Below are positions 23,311-36,597 of a DNA stretch of 40,019 bases, piece by piece (within the stretch, counting starts at the first letter, position 1; every line of letters starts with the position of its first letter). Under the pieces are notes generated by a model. It worked only from the letters and a program-made list of their open reading frames with translations. It did no database searches and was not told where the DNA came from. The stretch is from Granulicella sp. (GTDB lineage: Bacteria > Acidobacteriota > Terriglobia > Terriglobales > Acidobacteriaceae), in NCBI GenBank assembly GCA_027450185.1, contig DAIDKF010000019.1, positions 1 to 40,019 on the forward strand. The letters are read 5' to 3'. The translations under genes were made by a program, and so were the position numbers.

Positions 23311-23402
23311 TGGCGGAGAGTGGGGGATTCGAACCCCCGGTAGAACTTTCGTCCTACAACGGTTTAGCAAACCGCCGCCTTCAGCCACTCGGCCAACTCT
23401 CC
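23311..23402 (-). tRNA. tRNA-Ser (anticodon GCT)
   Basis: Minus strand. The acceptor stem GGAGAGT (23402-23396) pairs with ACTCTCC. The D-arm reads GGCCGAGTGGCTGAAGGC, the anticodon loop TTTGCTAAA gives GCT for AGC/AGU codons, and a long variable arm (class II tRNA) precedes the T-arm GGGGGTTCGAATCCCCC. After discriminator G the CCA end is encoded (23313-23311). Length is 92 bases. Downstream (below 23311) an A/T-rich hairpin ATCTTCT/AGAAGAT follows and may be the terminator or processing signal. The stretch 23165-23310 otherwise shows no gene. Confidence 0.97.
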
Positions 23403-29691: not shown

Positions 29692-30716
29692 TGGACGACA
29701 ACTCCCATCCCCGCATTGCTTTGACCCGAGCATCCTCAAATCCGCCCGCAGCCTCTGCTTTCAGCGCGACCAGCTTCAGCCCGTCCGTTCCAGACCACCC
29801 GGAACAAGGGACTTCAGCACCTGAGGGACTCTCCACCCACGACAAACCCCTCGCCCCCGGCCTCTATCTTGTCGCCACGCCCATCGGCAACCTCGAAGAC
29901 ATCACCCTCCGCGCCCTCCGCGTACTTCGCTCGGTCGACCGCATCGCCTGCGAGGACACCCGCCAAACCGCCAAGCTCTTAGGCCACTTCGGCATCCGCA
30001 CGCCCACCATCAGCTACCACACCCACAACGAAAACGCCCGCGCCAGCGAACTCATCGAAGCCCTCAAATCCGGCGGCCACATCGCCATCGTCTCCGACGC
30101 AGGCATGCCCGGCATCGCCGACCCCGGTGCCACCATCGCCGCCCAAGCCGTTGCCGCCGGCATCCCCGTCTACCCCATCCCCGGCGCCAACGCCGCCCTC
30201 AGCGCCCTCATCGCCAGCGGCTTCTCTGCCGATCGCTTTACCTTCCACGGCTTCCTCCCCTCTAAAGAGGGCCAGCGCCGCACCTCCCTCGAGTTCCTCC
30301 GCAGCCATCTCACCGAGCCAGCCACCCACATCTTCTACGAAACCCCACACCGCATCCTCGATGCCCTGGCCGACATAACCGCCATCTTCGGCCCCAGCCA
30401 GCGCATTACTCTCGCCCGCGAGCTCACCAAGCTCCACGAAGAGTTCCTCCGCGGCACCGCCGCCGACGTCCTCGCCAGCCTCCGCGCCCGGCCCTCCATC
30501 CGCGGCGAAATGGTTCTCCTCATCGACGGAACTCCCTCCCCCGTCGCATCCACCAGTGCGTCCACGCACCCCACTCTGGCCGACGAAGTCGCCAGCCTCA
30601 TGCGCTCTGAATCCCTCTCTGAAAAAGACGCCCTCAAGCGCGTCGCCCGATCCCGCAACATCAGCAAGAGCGAAGCTTACCGCGAGTGGCAGCGTTCGGC
30701 ACTCCGCAAGGGCTAG
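29691..30716 (+). CDS. rsmI: 16S rRNA (cytidine-1402-2'-O)-methyltransferase RsmI
   Basis: Adds the 2'-O-methyl group to C1402, the same residue that RsmH methylates on N4. 341 residues, of which the first 50 or so are a low-complexity Ser/Pro/Ala leader. The core starts LYLVATPIGNLEDITLRALR, then CEDTRQTAKLL, SDAGMPGIADPGA and YPIPGANAALSALIASGF, with FHGFLPSK and FYETPHRI; all are tetrapyrrole-methylase-type RsmI marks. ATG 29691 overlaps the stop of the preceding gene. The long leader makes a later internal start possible, but none has a better context. Convergent with the small gene at 30720, a three-base gap. Confidence 0.94.
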   Translation: MDDNSHPRIALTRASSNPPAASAFSATSFSPSVPDHPEQGTSAPEGLSTHDKPLAPGLYLVATPIGNLEDITLRALRVLRSVDRIACEDTRQTAKLLGHFGIRTPTISYHTHNENARASELIEALKSGGHIAIVSDAGMPGIADPGATIAAQAVAAGIPVYPIPGANAALSALIASGFSADRFTFHGFLPSKEGQRRTSLEFLRSHLTEPATHIFYETPHRILDALADITAIFGPSQRITLARELTKLHEEFLRGTAADVLASLRARPSIRGEMVLLIDGTPSPVASTSASTHPTLADEVASLMRSESLSEKDALKRVARSRNISKSEAYREWQRSALRKG

Positions 30717-30719
30717 CCC

Positions 30720-31136
30720 CTATCGTCCCTTCACCCGATCGTAGTCATACCGGTCGCTGGTCGTCCCCAGTGCCTCGTTGTACAACTCCATCGCTCCCGC
30801 CGCCTCTTTCAACTGCTCATTGAATCCATGAATCGCGTGCAGGTGATCCGCCGTAGCCGGAATCTCCAGTCTGCTGGTCTTCAGAAACTTCTGATATCCG
30901 CGATCGACAATCCGCGCAATCTCTCCACCCAGCACCCAGCCGCCCTTGGTCAGTAATCGCACCGGCGCATCCCTCTCAGAGCTCGGAGCCATCTCTGCCG
31001 CGCACCCATTCTTGCTCACCCGGTACGCTCCTGCGGCCCGGTTTGCACCCTCCGCCGCCGGAGAAACATCAAACTTCTCACCACCCAGCGTGGCCAGAAC
31101 CTCATCAAACGTAGGAGCTTTCTTCGTCTTTGCCAT
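30720..31136 (-). CDS. conserved-looking protein of unknown function
   Basis: 138 residues from ATG 31136. A TTG at 31148 in frame is possible, but GGGAG lies too close to it. Not recognised. The sequence begins MAKTKKAPTFDEVLATLGG, has a middle block RLLTKGGWVLGGEIARIVDR, and ends with a helical stretch around HLHAIHGFNEQLKEAAGAME, followed by a basic tail DRYDYDRVKGR. It is soluble with no signal or membrane segment. The coding quality (codon bias like its neighbours, no arginine-rich noise) makes it a real gene in my view. It lies divergent from cysM across 198 bases; no functional link can be claimed. Confidence 0.65.
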   Translation of the reverse strand: MAKTKKAPTFDEVLATLGGEKFDVSPAAEGANRAAGAYRVSKNGCAAEMAPSSERDAPVRLLTKGGWVLGGEIARIVDRGYQKFLKTSRLEIPATADHLHAIHGFNEQLKEAAGAMELYNEALGTTSDRYDYDRVKGR

Positions 31137-31334
31137 AGTCGGTCTCAAACTCTCCCTGCCCAGTCGTCTCTACGCCCGGCGGACATCGCGCACCGCCGCT
31201 CTCTGCCAGACAGCCCGGCGAACCTCTACTCACTCTCGCACATCCGCCGCCCATCGTTCAACGCAGCCTCACACCACAACGCAACCGCCCCACGCGTTAC
31301 ACTCAAGCTTCATCCCCGGCCTTCGGCACAAACC

Positions 31335-32297
31335 ATGACGACTTCTCCCTCCAGCCTTCTCGGTATCAGCCTCCTCGACCGCATCGGCAACACACCTCTG
31401 CTCCGTCTCGACCGCCTCACCACGCACCTCCCCGGCATCCAGCTCCTCGGCAAAGTCGAGTGGGTCAACCCCGGCGGCAGCATCAAGGACCGCGCAGCCT
31501 CCAGCATCGTCCAGGCCGCCATCCGCCAAGGCCAGCTCGCCCCCGGCAACCCTGCCGGCAGAACGCTCCTCGACGCTACCAGCGGCAACACCGGCATCGC
31601 CTACGCTATGCTTGGCTCGGCCATAGGCTTCCCCGTCACCCTCTGCATGCCCTCCAACGTCAGCCCCGAGCGCAAAAACATCCTCGCCGCCTACGGTGCC
31701 CACATCGTTTGGACCGACCCCGCCGACGGCTCCGACGGTGCCATCCGCAAAGCCCGCGAACTCGCCGCCAACCAGCCTGAAAAGTTCTTCTACGCCGACC
31801 AGTACGGCAACGAGAACAACTGGCTCGCCCACTACCGCGGCACCGCCAACGAGATCTGGCAGCAAACCGAAGGCCGCGTCACCCACTTCATCGCGGGCCT
31901 CGGCACCAGCGGCACCTTCATGGGCACCACCCGACGCCTGCACGAGCTCAACCCCGCCATCCAGTGCATCTCCATGCAGCCCGACTCTCCCTTCAACGGC
32001 TTTGAAGGCCTCAAGCACATGGCCACCGCCATCGTCCCGCCCATCTACGACCCCACCCTCGCCGACCGCAACATCGACATGCCCACCGAGCGCGCCTATC
32101 TCATGGCCAAACGCCTCGGCCGCATGCAGGGCCTGCTCGTCGGCGTCTCCGCCGCAGGTGCCGTCGCCGCCTCACTCGACATTGCAGAAGAAGAGTCCCG
32201 TGCCGGACGCGAGTCTGTCATCGTCACCATCCTCTGCGACTCCGCCGACAAATACCTCAGCGAACGTTTCTGGACCGAACCCACCGCAGGCGAGTAA
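31335..32297 (+). CDS. cysM: cysteine synthase, CysM-like (PLP-dependent)
   Basis: Fold-type II PLP enzyme that makes cysteine from an activated serine and a sulfur donor. 320 residues. The PLP lysine is Lys51 in NPGGSIKDRAA; DATSGNTGIAYAMLGSAIG is the phosphate/substrate loop (SGNTG at 83-87); FIAGLGTSGTFMGTTRRL binds the cofactor phosphate. It heads a plus-strand group with a JAMM peptidase, a MoaD/ThiS-like carrier and MoeZ, the same kit as the mycobacterial CysM-CysO-Mec-MoeZ pathway, in which the sulfur donor is the carrier thiocarboxylate and the acceptor is O-phosphoserine. By that context I infer carrier-dependent synthesis. No serine acetyltransferase gene is nearby. Confidence 0.93.
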   Translation: MTTSPSSLLGISLLDRIGNTPLLRLDRLTTHLPGIQLLGKVEWVNPGGSIKDRAASSIVQAAIRQGQLAPGNPAGRTLLDATSGNTGIAYAMLGSAIGFPVTLCMPSNVSPERKNILAAYGAHIVWTDPADGSDGAIRKARELAANQPEKFFYADQYGNENNWLAHYRGTANEIWQQTEGRVTHFIAGLGTSGTFMGTTRRLHELNPAIQCISMQPDSPFNGFEGLKHMATAIVPPIYDPTLADRNIDMPTERAYLMAKRLGRMQGLLVGVSAAGAVAASLDIAEEESRAGRESVIVTILCDSADKYLSERFWTEPTAGE

Positions 32298-32367
32298 CTC
32301 CTGCCAAACTGACAACCGACAGCCATGCAGTATCAAGCTGGAACCAGGAAAATTGGACCCAACCTCT

Positions 32368-32829
32368 ATGCCCCTCATCATCCCCCAGCCCCTCTATAAC
32401 CAACTCCGAGCTCACGGCGAAGAGACCTACCCCCACGAGTGCTGCGGCATCCTGCTCGGCAACTCCGACGCCGACCACCTCACTGTCTGCCAGCTTATTC
32501 GTGCCGGCAACACCCGCACCGACAGCGCCCACAACCGCTACAACATTGCCCCCCAGGAACTCATCGCGGCCCAGCGCGAAGCCCGCAAGCACAACCTCGA
32601 CATCGTAGGCTTCTACCACTCTCACCCCGACCACCCCGCCCAGTGGTCCCCCACCGACTTCGCCGAAGCCCACTGGTTCGGCTGCGCCTACGTCATCACC
32701 TCCGTCGATGGCGACAAAACCACCGGCCACGCCCAGCTCACCAACAGCTTCCTCCTCACCGGCGCCACCGAGGAAGACAAGGCATTCATCCCCCAGCGCA
32801 TCGAATTCGATTCACCTGCATCCAAATAA
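32368..32829 (+). CDS. JAMM/MPN+ metallopeptidase (Mec-like)
   Basis: Zinc peptidase that cleaves after the diglycine of ubiquitin-like sulfur carriers. 153 residues. The JAMM motif is complete: Glu24 in YPHECCGILLG and HSHPDHPAQWSPTDFAEAHW with His84, His86, Ser94 and Asp97 (H-x-H-x7-S-x2-D). In mycobacteria Mec releases cysteine from CysO-Cys. In Pseudomonas QbsD removes residues behind the carrier's GG. Here both tasks are plausible because the neighbouring carrier has an eight-residue tail after GG. Start ATG 32368 is 70 bases after the cysM stop, with only a weak ribosome binding site. The universal-stress gene starts eight bases after its stop. Confidence 0.9.
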   Translation: MPLIIPQPLYNQLRAHGEETYPHECCGILLGNSDADHLTVCQLIRAGNTRTDSAHNRYNIAPQELIAAQREARKHNLDIVGFYHSHPDHPAQWSPTDFAEAHWFGCAYVITSVDGDKTTGHAQLTNSFLLTGATEEDKAFIPQRIEFDSPASK

Positions 32830-32837
32830 GCAGGTAC

Positions 32838-33269
32838 ATGTTCAATAAGATTGCCATCGCCTACGACGAATCCCCCGCTGCCGAGCACGCTCTGGCAAAG
32901 GCCATCTCGCTCGCCGCCGCACTCGGCTCCACGCTCCGCATCATCACCATCGTTGAACCCCTCCCCGCCTACGTCAACATCGCCCTCGCGCTCGACGGCA
33001 ACCTCCCCCAGCAGCTTCTCAACGAGCGCCGCCAGCGCCTCTCCCAGACCCACAAGCTTGCCCTCATCCATGCCGCCGAGGCCGGCGTGAGCGCCGACGC
33101 CATCCTCGTCGATGGCCGCGAGGTCGAAGGCATCCTTGCCGAGATCACCGCATACGGTGCCGATCTTCTGGTTATCGGCCTCAGCCAGCATCACGGCTTT
33201 GGTGAGATGAGCAGTACCATCCACCGCATCTCCCTCAACGCACCCTGTCCGGTCCTCGGCGTCCATTAA
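32838..33269 (+). CDS. universal stress protein (UspA family)
   Basis: 143 residues with one Usp domain: MFNKIAIAYDESPAAEHALA at the start and the C-terminal strand NAPCPVLGVH. The usual ATP-binding run G-x2-G-x9-G-(S/T) is not clearly present: the stretch reads GLSQHHGFGEMSSTIHRIS, so nucleotide binding is doubtful. GCAGGT lies before ATG 32838. It sits between the JAMM peptidase and the carrier gene, which suggests co-expression with sulfur transfer, but no mechanism is known to me. Confidence 0.85.
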   Translation: MFNKIAIAYDESPAAEHALAKAISLAAALGSTLRIITIVEPLPAYVNIALALDGNLPQQLLNERRQRLSQTHKLALIHAAEAGVSADAILVDGREVEGILAEITAYGADLLVIGLSQHHGFGEMSSTIHRISLNAPCPVLGVH

Positions 33270-33285
33270 TTTCACGCACCTCGCA

Positions 33286-33306
33286 TAGAATAGAGGTTGT
33301 ACAACC
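33286..33306. promoter_or_regulatory. -10-like box and palindrome upstream of the carrier gene
   Basis: TAGAAT (33286-33291) is followed by the perfect 12-base palindrome GGTTGTACAACC (33295-33306), which would overlap the transcription start of a promoter for the carrier gene. No good -35 is present. The leader to the ATG at 33401 also contains short complementary stretches (GGCG/CGCC, CCTG/CAGG). Confidence 0.4.
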
Positions 33307-33400
33307 CTCACCAGGCGCGTCCATTACGCCATCAGGAATCATCCACCTGCCGCCTGTCGCTTTACGCCAGAATACTTTCAGGAGACACTCCCGAGACCCC

Positions 33401-33697
33401 ATGAACATCCACATCCCCACCCCGCTACGCACCTACACCGACAAGCAGGAGACCGTCTCCGTCGATGGAGCCACCGTAGCCGAAGGCCTCGCCGCTCTCA
33501 CCGCGGCCTTCCCCGCCATGCAGCAGCACCTCTTCACCGCCGAGGGCAAGCTGCGCTCCTTCGTCAACGTCTACCTCAACGACGACGACGTCCGTTATCT
33601 CCCCGCGAAGGAAGACTCCCTCGTAGCCTCCACCGACGAACTCACCATCATCCCCAGCATCGCCGGCGGCTGCACGCTCACCGGTTGTTGTCGCTAA
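33401..33697 (+). CDS. MoaD/ThiS/CysO-like sulfur carrier protein with masked diglycine
   Basis: 98-residue beta-grasp protein. MNIHIPTPLRTYTDKQETVS begins the ubiquitin-like fold, and FVNVYLNDDDVRYL is the conserved central strand (NVYLND as in MoaD/CysO). TDELTIIPSIAGG ends with Gly89-Gly90, but translation continues with CTLTGCCR before the stop. The carrier can only be adenylated on a free C-terminal Gly, so the eight residues must be removed, most simply by the adjacent JAMM peptidase. Similar masked carriers (QbsE with GGCF, HcyS with GGA) are known to need such a peptidase. The tail here is longer and contains three cysteines. The start ATG 33401 has GGAG at a rather long distance. Confidence 0.9.
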   Translation: MNIHIPTPLRTYTDKQETVSVDGATVAEGLAALTAAFPAMQQHLFTAEGKLRSFVNVYLNDDDVRYLPAKEDSLVASTDELTIIPSIAGGCTLTGCCR

Positions 33698-33817
33698 TCC
33701 CGCATATCTGCCTCGCTGAGCGAAGCTTCGCTGCTTGCACGCGCATCTGCCGCAGACTCCCCTAGCAGCTTCCCCCGCTCCCGCAGATCCCGTCCTCAGG
33801 CCGGCGCTTGACACCCT

Positions 33818-33826
33818 TGCTATAAT
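33818..33826 (+). promoter_or_regulatory. extended -10 promoter for moeZ
   Basis: TGCTATAAT is a perfect extended -10 element. TTGACA at 33808-33813 lies only seven bases ahead of TATAAT and cannot act as its -35. The predicted start is near 33833, giving moeZ its own transcript of about 146 leader bases. Confidence 0.6.
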
Positions 33827-33829
33827 CAC

Positions 33830-33928
33830 GACAGAGCAGGTGTAGCCCGGCCAACCCGCCGGGCCTTCGCGTTTAAGCGCGGCAACGGACTGCCATAAGT
33901 CCACCCTTAACTGCATTCCTGCGAAGTC
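33830..33928 (+). ncRNA. candidate structured leader RNA (four-way junction) upstream of moeZ
   Basis: A closing stem GCAGG (33836-33840) with CCTGC (33918-33922) extends inward through TGTA (33841-33844) with TGCA (33912-33915), and outward across a purine internal loop AGA/GAA to GAC (33830-33832) with GTC (33926-33928). Inside are three hairpins: GCCCGGC/GCCGGGC (33845-33851, 33858-33864), CGCG/CGCG (33868-33871, 33878-33881) and GGACT/AGTCC (33887-33891, 33898-33902). The order and perfect pairing suggest a regulatory leader or riboswitch for the sulfur-transfer gene behind it. It matches no family I can name. The outermost GAC may lie before the transcript start. Confidence 0.45.
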
Positions 33929-33978
33929 TTTACGTCAAAAAGTACCAGCCCCCCCGGGCAGCTAAATTGGAAGGACAC

Positions 33979-35199
33979 ATGATCGCCACTGCCACCGAAA
34001 CCGCCGCCCTCCCCAAGCTCACCAATGAGGAGATCGCCCGTTACTCCCGTCACCTCATCCTGCCCGAAGTCGGCATGGAAGGCCAACAGAAGCTCAAGGC
34101 CGCCAAGGTCCTCTGCGTCGGCACCGGCGGCCTCGGCGCGCCGTTGGCCATGTACCTCGCCGCCGCCGGCGTCGGCACCCTCGGCCTGGTCGACTTCGAC
34201 GTCGTCGACGAATCCAACCTCCAGCGCCAGATCATCCACTCCCAGTCCACCGTCGGCAAGCTCAAAGTCGACTCCGCCGAGACCATGCTCAACGGCCTCA
34301 ACAGGAACATCAAAGTCGTCAAGCACAACACCATGCTCACCAGCGCCAACGCGCTCGACATCTTCAAGGACTACGACGTCATCGCCGACGGCACCGACAA
34401 CTTCCAAACCCGATACCTGGTCAACGACGCCTGCGTCCTCACCGGCAAGCCCAACGCCTACGGCAGCATCTTCCGATTCGAAGGCCAGGCTAGCGTCTTC
34501 GCCACCGAAGCCGGCCCCTGCTACCGTTGCCTCTACCCCGAACCACCCCCGCCGGGCCTGGTTCCCTCCTGCGCCGAAGGCGGCGTCCTCGGCATCCTCC
34601 CCGGCCTGGTCGGCATCATCCAGGCCACCGAAGTCATCAAGCTCATCCTGGGCATCGGCGAACCCCTCATCGGCCGCCTGCTCCTGGTCGACTCGCTCGG
34701 CATGAGCTTCCGCACCATGAAGCTGCGCAAGAATCCCGACTGCCCCATGTGCGGCACCCGCGAGATCAAGGAACTCATCGACTACGACCAGTTCTGCGGC
34801 ATCCCCAAGCCCACCGAACTCGGCCCGCTCGAAGTCAGTTCTCACGGCAAAACCGCCGACCTCCCCATCGTCGACGGCATCCCCCAGATGACCGTCGAGC
34901 AACTCAAAGCCCGCATCGACGCCGGCACCGCGCCCTTCATCCTCGACGTTCGCGAGGCCCACGAGTACCAGATCGTCGACATCGGCGCACCGCTGATCCC
35001 CGTCGGTGATCTCCCCAACCAGCTTCACCGCCTCACCTTCCCGAAGACCACCGAGATCGTCATCCATTGCAAATCCGGTGCCCGTTCCCAGCGCGCGGCT
35101 CTCTTTCTCAAACAACAGGGTTTCACCAACGTCAGCAACCTGGCTGGTGGCATCCTCGCCTGGGCCGACCGCATCGACAAATCCCTGCCCAAGTACTAA
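33979..35199 (+). CDS. moeZ: MoeZ/MoeB-type adenylyltransferase with C-terminal rhodanese domain
   Basis: Activates the C-terminal glycine of the MoaD/ThiS/CysO-like carrier as acyl-adenylate and transfers sulfur to make the thiocarboxylate. 406 residues. The N-terminal E1-like domain has RYSRHLILPEVGMEGQQKLK, the nucleotide loop CVGTGGLGAP (GTGGLG 48-53), DGTDNFQTRYLVND, zinc cysteines C181/C184 and C255/C258 (CYRC, CPMC), and the catalytic-type Cys198 in PSCAEGGVLG. The rhodanese domain (about 300-406) has the active loop HCKSGARS with Cys364. A GGAAGGA box lies just before ATG 33979. It follows the carrier gene by 281 bases that contain its own promoter and a structured leader. Confidence 0.94.
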   Translation: MIATATETAALPKLTNEEIARYSRHLILPEVGMEGQQKLKAAKVLCVGTGGLGAPLAMYLAAAGVGTLGLVDFDVVDESNLQRQIIHSQSTVGKLKVDSAETMLNGLNRNIKVVKHNTMLTSANALDIFKDYDVIADGTDNFQTRYLVNDACVLTGKPNAYGSIFRFEGQASVFATEAGPCYRCLYPEPPPPGLVPSCAEGGVLGILPGLVGIIQATEVIKLILGIGEPLIGRLLLVDSLGMSFRTMKLRKNPDCPMCGTREIKELIDYDQFCGIPKPTELGPLEVSSHGKTADLPIVDGIPQMTVEQLKARIDAGTAPFILDVREAHEYQIVDIGAPLIPVGDLPNQLHRLTFPKTTEIVIHCKSGARSQRAALFLKQQGFTNVSNLAGGILAWADRIDKSLPKY

Positions 35200-35214
35200 C
35201 TCCGCACCAGAAAA

Positions 35215-35247
35215 ATACAGCGGCCCTCCTCTCGAGGGCCGCTGTAT
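35215..35247. terminator. strong bidirectional intrinsic terminator between moeZ and hom
   Basis: A 14-base perfect stem (35215-35228 with 35234-35247) with loop CTCTC. On the plus strand CTTCTTTT follows; on the minus strand the stem is followed by TTTTT-like bases, so both convergent genes can use it. It ends the sulfur-carrier group. Confidence 0.85.
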
Positions 35248-35295
35248 CTTCTTTTGCCTTTCTGGATGTCTTCCTGCAGCGATCTGCTGTCGCAC

Positions 35296-36597
35296 CTAAT
35301 CCGTCGCAGGATCGTTCGCCACAACGATCTCCAAACACAGCGGCGGCTCCACCATAAACGCCATCTCGGCCATCTCGGCAACAGCCTTCTCCAGCGTTGC
35401 GCTGCTACACGGCTCGGTCGTCACAACAAACGGCAACCGCCGCTCAGGATGCCCGCGATGCTGCAGCAGCGAGTCGATGTTAACCCCATACTTCGCCAGC
35501 GCCCCGGCAATGGCCGCCACAATCCCCGGCCTGTCCCCGACGACGAACCGCAGATAGTGCGGCGCCACCACATCGCCCACCACCTTCATCTTCTTCGCTG
35601 GCAGCCGCACCTGTACGCTCCTCTCGGCGATCGCCCGCACATCGCTCATCACCGCAACTGCCGTCGGATAGCCGCCCGCGCCGTGCCCGCTGAACACCAC
35701 ATCGCCGCCAAACCGTCCGCTGGTCACGACCATATTCTGTGTCCCGTGCGACCATGCAATCGGCGAGGTCGTCGGCACCAGCATCGGCCCCACGCTGGCA
35801 CTCACCACTCCATCCATCACCGCTGCCCGCGACACCTGCCGCACCGTGCACCCCAACTCTTTGGCATACGCAAAATCGATGGCCGAGATCGCAGCAATCG
35901 TCTGTGTCGGTACCTGCTCCGGGTCAATCTCCGCATGCAGCGCCAACCGCGCGAGCACGCACAACTTGGCCCGCGCATCCCACCCATCCACATCGGCCGA
36001 AGGATCAGCCTCCGCATAGCCTTTGCGCTGCGCCTCGGCCAGCACCGCCCCGTACTCCGCACCGCTCTCCATCGAACTCAGGATGAAGTTGCACGTCCCA
36101 TTCACAATCCCGATGATCCGCGTAATCCGCTCGCCGCTCAGCCCCTGCGCAATCCCCGGGATCACCGGCACGCCGCCCGCCACCGCCGCGCCATACAGCA
36201 ACTGCACGCCCTTCTCTGCAGCCAGCTCGAACAACTCCGCCCCGCGATACGCAATCAACTGCTTATTCGCGGTCACCACATGCTTACCCGCGCTCAACGC
36301 CGCACGCAGCCAACTCTCCGCCGGGTCGAGCCCGCCCATCAACTCGACCACTACGTCCACATCTTTCGACTCCAGCACGTCCTCCACGCGCTCGGTCCAC
36401 ACCGCATCGCTGGCCACAAACTTCGCCTGCACATGCGCTCGCTTCCGCTCCACGCCACGATTGAACACATGTGTAATCCGCACGTCCGCATTCCCAGAGG
36501 CCGCCAGCACCTCCGCAAACGCACCTCCGACCGTCCCAAATCCCAGCAACCCAACGCGCAACAGATTTCTCCTTCGTTCGTCCGTCTTCAAATCCAT
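35296..36597 (-). CDS. hom: homoserine dehydrogenase with C-terminal ACT domain
   Basis: Reduces aspartate semialdehyde to homoserine for threonine and methionine. 433 residues from ATG 36597. LLRVGLLGFGTVGGAFAEVL is the Rossmann start, VVELMGGLDPAESWLRAALS and GKHVVTANKQLIAYRG are conserved. The catalytic region is GGVPVIPGIAQGLSGERITR, IIGIVNGTCNFIL and EADPSADVDGWDARAKLCVL. The ACT domain (HYLRFVVGDRPGIVAAIAGA) at about 350-420 suggests feedback control by an amino acid. The frame is open upstream to 36645, but that would overlap the deaminase gene; ATG 36597 gives MDLKTDERRRN and avoids this. It follows the deaminase by 14 bases on the same strand, so the two may be co-transcribed although their pathways differ. 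Confidence 0.95.
   Translation of the reverse strand: MDLKTDERRRNLLRVGLLGFGTVGGAFAEVLAASGNADVRITHVFNRGVERKRAHVQAKFVASDAVWTERVEDVLESKDVDVVVELMGGLDPAESWLRAALSAGKHVVTANKQLIAYRGAELFELAAEKGVQLLYGAAVAGGVPVIPGIAQGLSGERITRIIGIVNGTCNFILSSMESGAEYGAVLAEAQRKGYAEADPSADVDGWDARAKLCVLARLALHAEIDPEQVPTQTIAAISAIDFAYAKELGCTVRQVSRAAVMDGVVSASVGPMLVPTTSPIAWSHGTQNMVVTSGRFGGDVVFSGHGAGGYPTAVAVMSDVRAIAERSVQVRLPAKKMKVVGDVVAPHYLRFVVGDRPGIVAAIAGALAKYGVNIDSLLQHRGHPERRLPFVVTTEPCSSATLEKAVAEMAEMAFMVEPPLCLEIVVANDPATD

Follow-up and report, generated by a model that had tools for sequence, protein, structure and literature searches.

A gene cluster in the genome of a soil bacterium, Granulicella sp., raises the question of why a ubiquitin-like sulfur carrier should be encoded with residues beyond its C-terminal Gly-Gly (GG). 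The cluster lies in a stretch of 40,019 nucleotides, referred to here as the window (positions 1 to 40,019 of contig DAIDKF010000019.1, assembly GCA_027450185.1, forward strand), and combines the carrier with a cysM-like cysteine synthase, a JAMM metallopeptidase and a MoeZ-like enzyme. The answer proposed, which is considered likely, is that JAMM matures the ubiquitin-like sulfur carriers in general, that its presence permits C-terminal extensions, and that at least one masking residue is kept on this carrier. By analogy we infer that the carrier would be synthesized as a precursor and cleaved after Gly90 by the cluster JAMM, releasing whatever follows. The freed glycine would then be adenylated and thiocarboxylated by MoeZ, the cysM-like enzyme would build cysteine on the thiocarboxylated carrier, and JAMM would also free the cysteine product from the carrier.

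The masked carrier and its relatives

The carrier gene (33401-33697, forward strand) encodes 98 residues. Its ubiquitin-like core, residues 1-90 (33401..33670), matches the ThiS family with 41.7 bits in Pfam and ends in ...SIAGG. As stated in the original prediction, which was made from the DNA letters, Gly89-Gly90 is masked in the primary product by CTLTGCCR; this tail and the stop occupy 33671..33697, and the terminal cysteine codons are TGT TGT. The ThiS/MoaD domain with its GG is thus present, and a free GG C terminus in the primary product is absent. As the primary product has the tail CTLTGCCR instead of a free GG, the carrier is a precursor, or pro-carrier. The top match among solved structures is chain C of 3dwg (E 8.6e-14), whose last residues are the aligned GG; in the same entry, chain A is named Cysteine synthase B. 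The structural model of the carrier is confident save for residues 89-98, with a block mean pLDDT (predicted local distance difference test) of about 42 for residues 91-98, and the tail is predicted to be disordered.

A one-off sequencing error near 33670-33697, which the prediction had named as a possible flaw, is excluded, as the nearest relative (L003, 96%) likewise ends in GCCR. The genus as a whole has 24 distinct tails of 3 to 18 residues, always preceded by AGG at the end of the core, and in 18 of the 24 CC(C)R is final or is followed by a single residue.

The comparison was extended to 194 carrier loci from the genus, the family and a set of 80 named loci, mostly from Acidobacteriota. 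One locus with an unreadable end (L025), eight repeats (L032, L112, L113, L124, L442, L456, L466 and L470) and one row of a second carrier type were set aside, leaving 184 distinct carriers, 177 of them with a visible stop. A naked GG end was found in 2 of the 177 (L111 and L479). Unrelated tails of 1-32 residues are carried by 143 (31 with one residue, 20 with two and 19 with three), and in 32 the reading frame continues into MoeZ. The remaining 7 of the 184 also run into MoeZ and then leave the fetched stretch. The fusion of ThiS and ThiF domains was confirmed by Pfam in L039 and L505, and L044 was scored as fused despite undetermined bases (Ns) that break its MoeZ frame. In a phylum-wide set, the best 30 carriers were all masked (30/30), 16 of them through fusion to MoeZ.

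The notion of an eight-residue tail as a specific element does not survive this comparison, since extensions span 0-32 residues or a whole fused E1 enzyme and share no common sequence. It had been foreseen that the idea would fall if homologues ended at GG and the tail were not conserved; the second holds, as the tail sequence varies, but the first does not, as homologues extend past GG. In this carrier type a single extra residue is found in 31 cases and a naked end in 2 (binomial p 1.3e-7), and naked ends are far rarer in cysteine-type carriers (2/177) than in ThiS from JAMM-bearing genomes (23/49; p 8e-16). These sequence counts suggest that selection maintains one masking residue or more on this carrier.

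Two features of the DNA around the tails were observed besides. In L121, L127, L136 and L138, tails or gaps resemble pieces of repeated palindromes (GCGCTTCGCGC and similar), as though inserted repeats were tolerated. In L006, L007, L011, L023 and others, an imperfect inverted repeat, TGTTGTCGC...GCGAGAACA, spans the carrier stop; this hairpin is seen in part of the genus and is not found in the window.

Masking and the presence of JAMM

Masking is not confined to cysteine synthesis. In the window's genome, ThiS ends in GGG-SASTYAERRCFQ, MoaD forms a fusion with MoaE, and GG-SCADSA is the end of a second carrier, which adjoins a pyridoxal phosphate (PLP) enzyme (L002, G000:C18:7862-11128). Masked in like manner, ThiS and MoaD deprive the eight-residue tail of its supposed special character. 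The second carrier type is tailed in all 6 cases read in the genus. The PALP-fold enzyme next to it in L002 resembles threonine synthase, and the pair may make a sulfur amino acid in a carrier-dependent way. Tails on ThiS and fusions of MoaD to MoaE were noticed in the genus (L193-L213): ThiS was tailed in 10/10 of the first set read, with one further, naked case (G023), and MoaD extended beyond GG in 10/10. These observations led to a test of masking against the presence of JAMM.

In the wider family, 17 of the 20 ThiS read were tailed, the naked cases being G057, G059 and G069. A PF14464 JAMM was found in 23/24 family genomes, with a single match each in G000, G003 and G010; in G000, the window's genome (assembled to 54% completeness in 145 contigs), this one match is the cluster JAMM. 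JAMM is retained in 8 of the 9 family genomes without a cysteine-type carrier, which fits a wider job for the peptidase. In G069, a carrier-less genome without a JAMM match, ThiS is naked.

The association was then examined over 119 Acidobacteriota genomes, JAMM being scored as present with a PF14464 match of at least 60 bits. Matches of 20-46 bits were scored as absent, including those of G252 (40.3) and G255 (41.2); most occur in frames of about 230-270 residues, which we take to be RadC. ThiS could be counted in 84 of 85 matching genomes (G203 was left out, as were minor second hits in G033, G185 and G187). It was masked in 26 of 49 JAMM-bearing genomes versus 0 of 35 genomes without JAMM (Fisher p 2.6e-8, calculated with 34 of the 35 JAMM-less genomes). 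The 26 masked forms comprise 22 tails of 1-17 residues and 4 fusions to ThiG, all confirmed by Pfam (4/4). Counted by family, ThiS was masked in 11/24 with JAMM and 0/15 without (p 0.0024); families f19, f24 and f26 are found on both sides of this table. MoaD was counted in 88 of 91 matching genomes (without G209, G184 and G256, and without second hits in G187, G192 and G269). Masking was found in 36/53 JAMM-bearing genomes, as 22 MoaE fusions and 14 tails, versus 2/35 without JAMM (p 2.3e-9); by family the counts are 16/27 and 2/19 (p 0.0017). For 5 of the loci with fused MoaD, a Pfam match confirmed MoaE, the remaining fusions being judged by eye. Both ThiS and MoaD thus show masking where JAMM is present.

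Within genus g136, ThiS stops directly after QGG in G245 and G277, and continues as QGG-RAADRV or QGG-CGADRV in G270 and G262, the downstream frame being identical (L316, L317, L318 and L326). Here the loss of a stop codon is seen in progress, and JAMM accordingly seems to make a stop at GG less necessary.

Several observations weigh against JAMM as a general maturase. Naked carriers are common beside it (ThiS in 23/49 and MoaD in 17/53 JAMM-bearing genomes), so that JAMM allows masking without requiring it. Masked MoaD occurs in two genomes scored as JAMM-less, G196 and G210, both with real MoaE fusions. In G196, PF14464 is matched with 32.5 bits, perhaps by a diverged JAMM; in G210 the masked form is one of two copies, on a 3,067-base contig, and is perhaps a contamination. 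G069, without a JAMM match, also has a MoaD-MoaE fusion. The carrier model matched in 14 genomes scored as JAMM-less, the C-termini of which lie outside these counts, and PF14464 is matched more than once in several JAMM-bearing genomes. Genomes with JAMM may also differ from the others in further respects, and genomes and families share ancestry, so that the p-values are only guides. With these reservations, it is presumed that one JAMM would serve ThiS, MoaD, the cysteine-type carrier and the second carrier. If JAMM is a general maturase, genomes that possess it can put up with extensions after GG or make use of them, as short random tails or as fusions to MoeZ, MoaE or ThiG.

Cysteine codons before the stop and rival explanations

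Of 976 in-frame tail residues, 178 are cysteine (111 of 765 when the genus is left out), versus 9/833 and 16/833 when the two other frames are read. CC runs number 51 in frame, versus 0 and 0 in the other frames, and the last cysteine run ends at most one residue from the stop in 28 of 37 cases, versus a mean of 12.3 and a maximum of 20 upon random placement (n = 1000). In the terminal runs, cysteine is encoded 77 times by TGT and 8 times by TGC, whereas the neighbouring genes of the genus (those of CysM, JAMM, the universal stress protein and MoeZ) use TGC 254 times and TGT 12 times. To judge from these counts, selection has acted on the codons of the cysteine runs, in frame and close to the stop. 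The oddness of the tail cysteines, which had been remarked upon in the original prediction, is therefore real as regards enrichment of in-frame runs at the stop, but the codon bias points to translation and not to protein chemistry. For this reason among others, it is very improbable that the three tail cysteines form a zinc or redox switch, binding a metal or forming a disulfide that controls cleavage by JAMM, as had been suggested. The high cysteine content, overall and outside the genus, would suit such a switch; however, 75 of 145 free tails have no cysteine, the spacing of the cysteines is not conserved, the tail is predicted to be disordered, and selection at the protein level does not account for the TGT bias. 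A polycysteine attenuator would accommodate the codons: ribosomes would stall at the cysteine codons before the stop when charged Cys-tRNA is scarce, altering the expression of moeZ or of the carrier message, and the peptide itself would be disposable. A run of cysteine codons directly before the stop and upstream of a sulfur gene is present in the window, the tail of which ends in GCCR, and a precedent is provided by the short polycysteine open reading frames (ORFs) of mycobacteria, described as cysteine-responsive attenuators in PMC9094748 (citing Canestrari 2020). Among all free carriers, the gap to moeZ is longer with CC than without (median 165 versus 117, p 0.002), but the difference is not significant within Acidobacteriaceae-side loci (p 0.13). 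A hairpin involving the cysteine codons, with pairing limited to the first 45 bases downstream, reached p <=0.05 in 8 of 33 loci, and no significant pairing of these bases with the tail cysteine codons was seen in the window (p 0.54). Cysteine runs also remain at two loci without an adjacent moeZ: none turned up in the L020 locus, and in L021 the gene is about 1.4 kb distant. A regulon marked by the 12-mer TGTTGTCGCTAR, which has 23 sites in 20/28 genus genomes, 15 of them at carriers, was rejected, since the 8 off-carrier copies lie in or across unrelated ORFs and no leader-like second site was found; the wider pattern TGYTGYTGYCGNTRR was too loose, with matches in 28/28 genomes. Attenuation is on balance rather unlikely. 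It is likewise doubtful, if conceivable, that the tail is a disposable sensor in which the codons after GG, spare because JAMM removes everything there, serve as a polycysteine gauge of Cys-tRNA charging. Slow TGT codons, in runs at the stop, would then make up the gauge, inside the carrier gene and not in a separate leader peptide.

The tails might also be leftovers of pure drift. JAMM would trim anything after GG, the stop codon would wander freely, and the extensions would accumulate as in a neutral ratchet. Neither the sequence nor the length of the tails is conserved, the g136 ThiS stops at QGG in two genomes and is read through in two, and ThiS and MoaD are often naked in JAMM-bearing genomes, all of which drift would explain. 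It would explain neither the depletion of naked ends in the cysteine-type carrier relative to ThiS nor the confinement of cysteine runs to the reading frame, and drift as the whole cause is accordingly thought unlikely. In the actinobacterial pathway, CysO does not have to be trimmed, and the substrate of JAMM is the carrier-cysteine adduct. With 3dwg_C stopping at GG, this speaks for a JAMM that only frees cysteine from the loaded carrier, the tails being trimmed by another protease. The masking of ThiS and MoaD tracks JAMM, although neither of their pathways needs an amino acid to be released from the carrier, and a separate protease is thus an improbable solution. General maturation by JAMM, with at least one masking residue kept on the cysteine-type carrier, is the explanation retained.

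The gene cluster and known systems

The predicted grouping of cysM-like, JAMM, carrier and moeZ genes was confirmed by Pfam and NCBIfam matches, all genes lying on the forward strand. The cysM-like cysteine synthase, a PLP enzyme (31335..32297), matches PALP with 215.9 bits; its top NCBIfam match is TIGR01138 cysM, with 324.8 bits, under the cut-off of 394.2. The JAMM metallopeptidase (32368..32829), the proposed general carrier maturase, matches Prok-JAB with 88.9 bits and has the metal motif HSHPDHPAQWSPTD, starting at residue 84, so that both the HxHP...SxxD signature and the domain are present. A universal stress protein gene (32838..33269, Usp 83.1 bits), which was not among the genes listed by the original prediction, lies within the cluster, flanked by JAMM and the carrier. 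The MoeZ-like protein (33979..35199) is an E1 adenylyltransferase with a rhodanese domain (ThiF 269.8 and Rhodanese 55.2 bits) and contains the motifs GTGGLG, CPMC and CKSGAR. Among the 80 named loci, JAMM was found in 72, CysM in 67, MoeZ in 76 and all three together in 64; the metal motif is retained in all 72 JAMM matches.

The 281-base gap between carrier and moeZ (33698..33978) is without an Rfam family. At the gathering threshold, the sole Rfam match in the whole window is a tRNA at 23314-23402, and all matches within 30700-35400 are below threshold, at chance level. Upstream of moeZ, at 33808-33826, TTGACA and TATAAT were seen by eye just 7 bases apart, an abnormal promoter spacing. In L004 and L021, about 1.3-1.4 kb separates the carrier from moeZ, with other sequence between.

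If general maturation by JAMM holds, one peptidase would provide a shared maturation step for thiamine, molybdenum-cofactor (MoCo) and cysteine synthesis in many Acidobacteriota. It would be a bacterial counterpart of ubiquitin precursor processing, in which the ubiquitin of human cells is made as a precursor and then trimmed. It would also yield a simple genome-wide prediction, that masked carriers need JAMM, and would account for odd gene models in which ThiS, MoaD or CysO-like carriers run beyond GG or are fused to MoaE, ThiG or MoeZ. The operon class (since 2006) and the processing of single carriers by JAMM are already known. No published link of JAMM presence to joint masking of ThiS, MoaD and CysO-like carriers was found in a literature search that left subscription journals largely outside.

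The cluster has the same four activities as the CysM-CysO-JAMM (Mec+)-MoeZ pathway of Actinobacteria, a likeness supported by 3dwg_C as the best solved match for the carrier. It differs in that the carriers of 3dwg and 4n6e end at GG, whereas the carrier here is tailed or fused to E1. QbsE/QbsD and HcyS/HcyD are masked sulfur carriers trimmed by JAMM, and are alike in both respects; their short, fixed tails in single specialized pathways differ from the tails described here.

The gene set of the window is that of the class 4c operon of Iyer, Burroughs and Aravind (2006; PMC1779556), with cysteine synthase, JAB (JAMM), a ThiS/MoaD-like carrier and E1-rhodanese, and is complete; an acidobacterium (Susi) is among the members of this class. 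In the parts of that paper compared, it is proposed that JAB may free ubiquitin-like domains from fusions, thiamine and MoCo operons are noted to lack JAB, and neither tails on class 4c carriers nor a link between JAB and masked ThiS is described. DRJAMM of Deinococcus radiodurans cuts MoaD-MoaE after Gly, and MoaD-MoaE activity and MoCo function need DRJAMM; one substrate is reported (PMC8832034), whereas several carriers are masked in the window's genome. In Caldiarchaeum, according to PMC6043591, CsJAMM cuts CsSAMP precursors and CsRpn11 removes a nine-residue tail after GG. The likeness lies in JAMM-type proteases that cut tails after GG; CsRpn11 acts specifically on CsUb and CsJAMM on CsSAMP, whereas a single JAMM would serve several carriers here.

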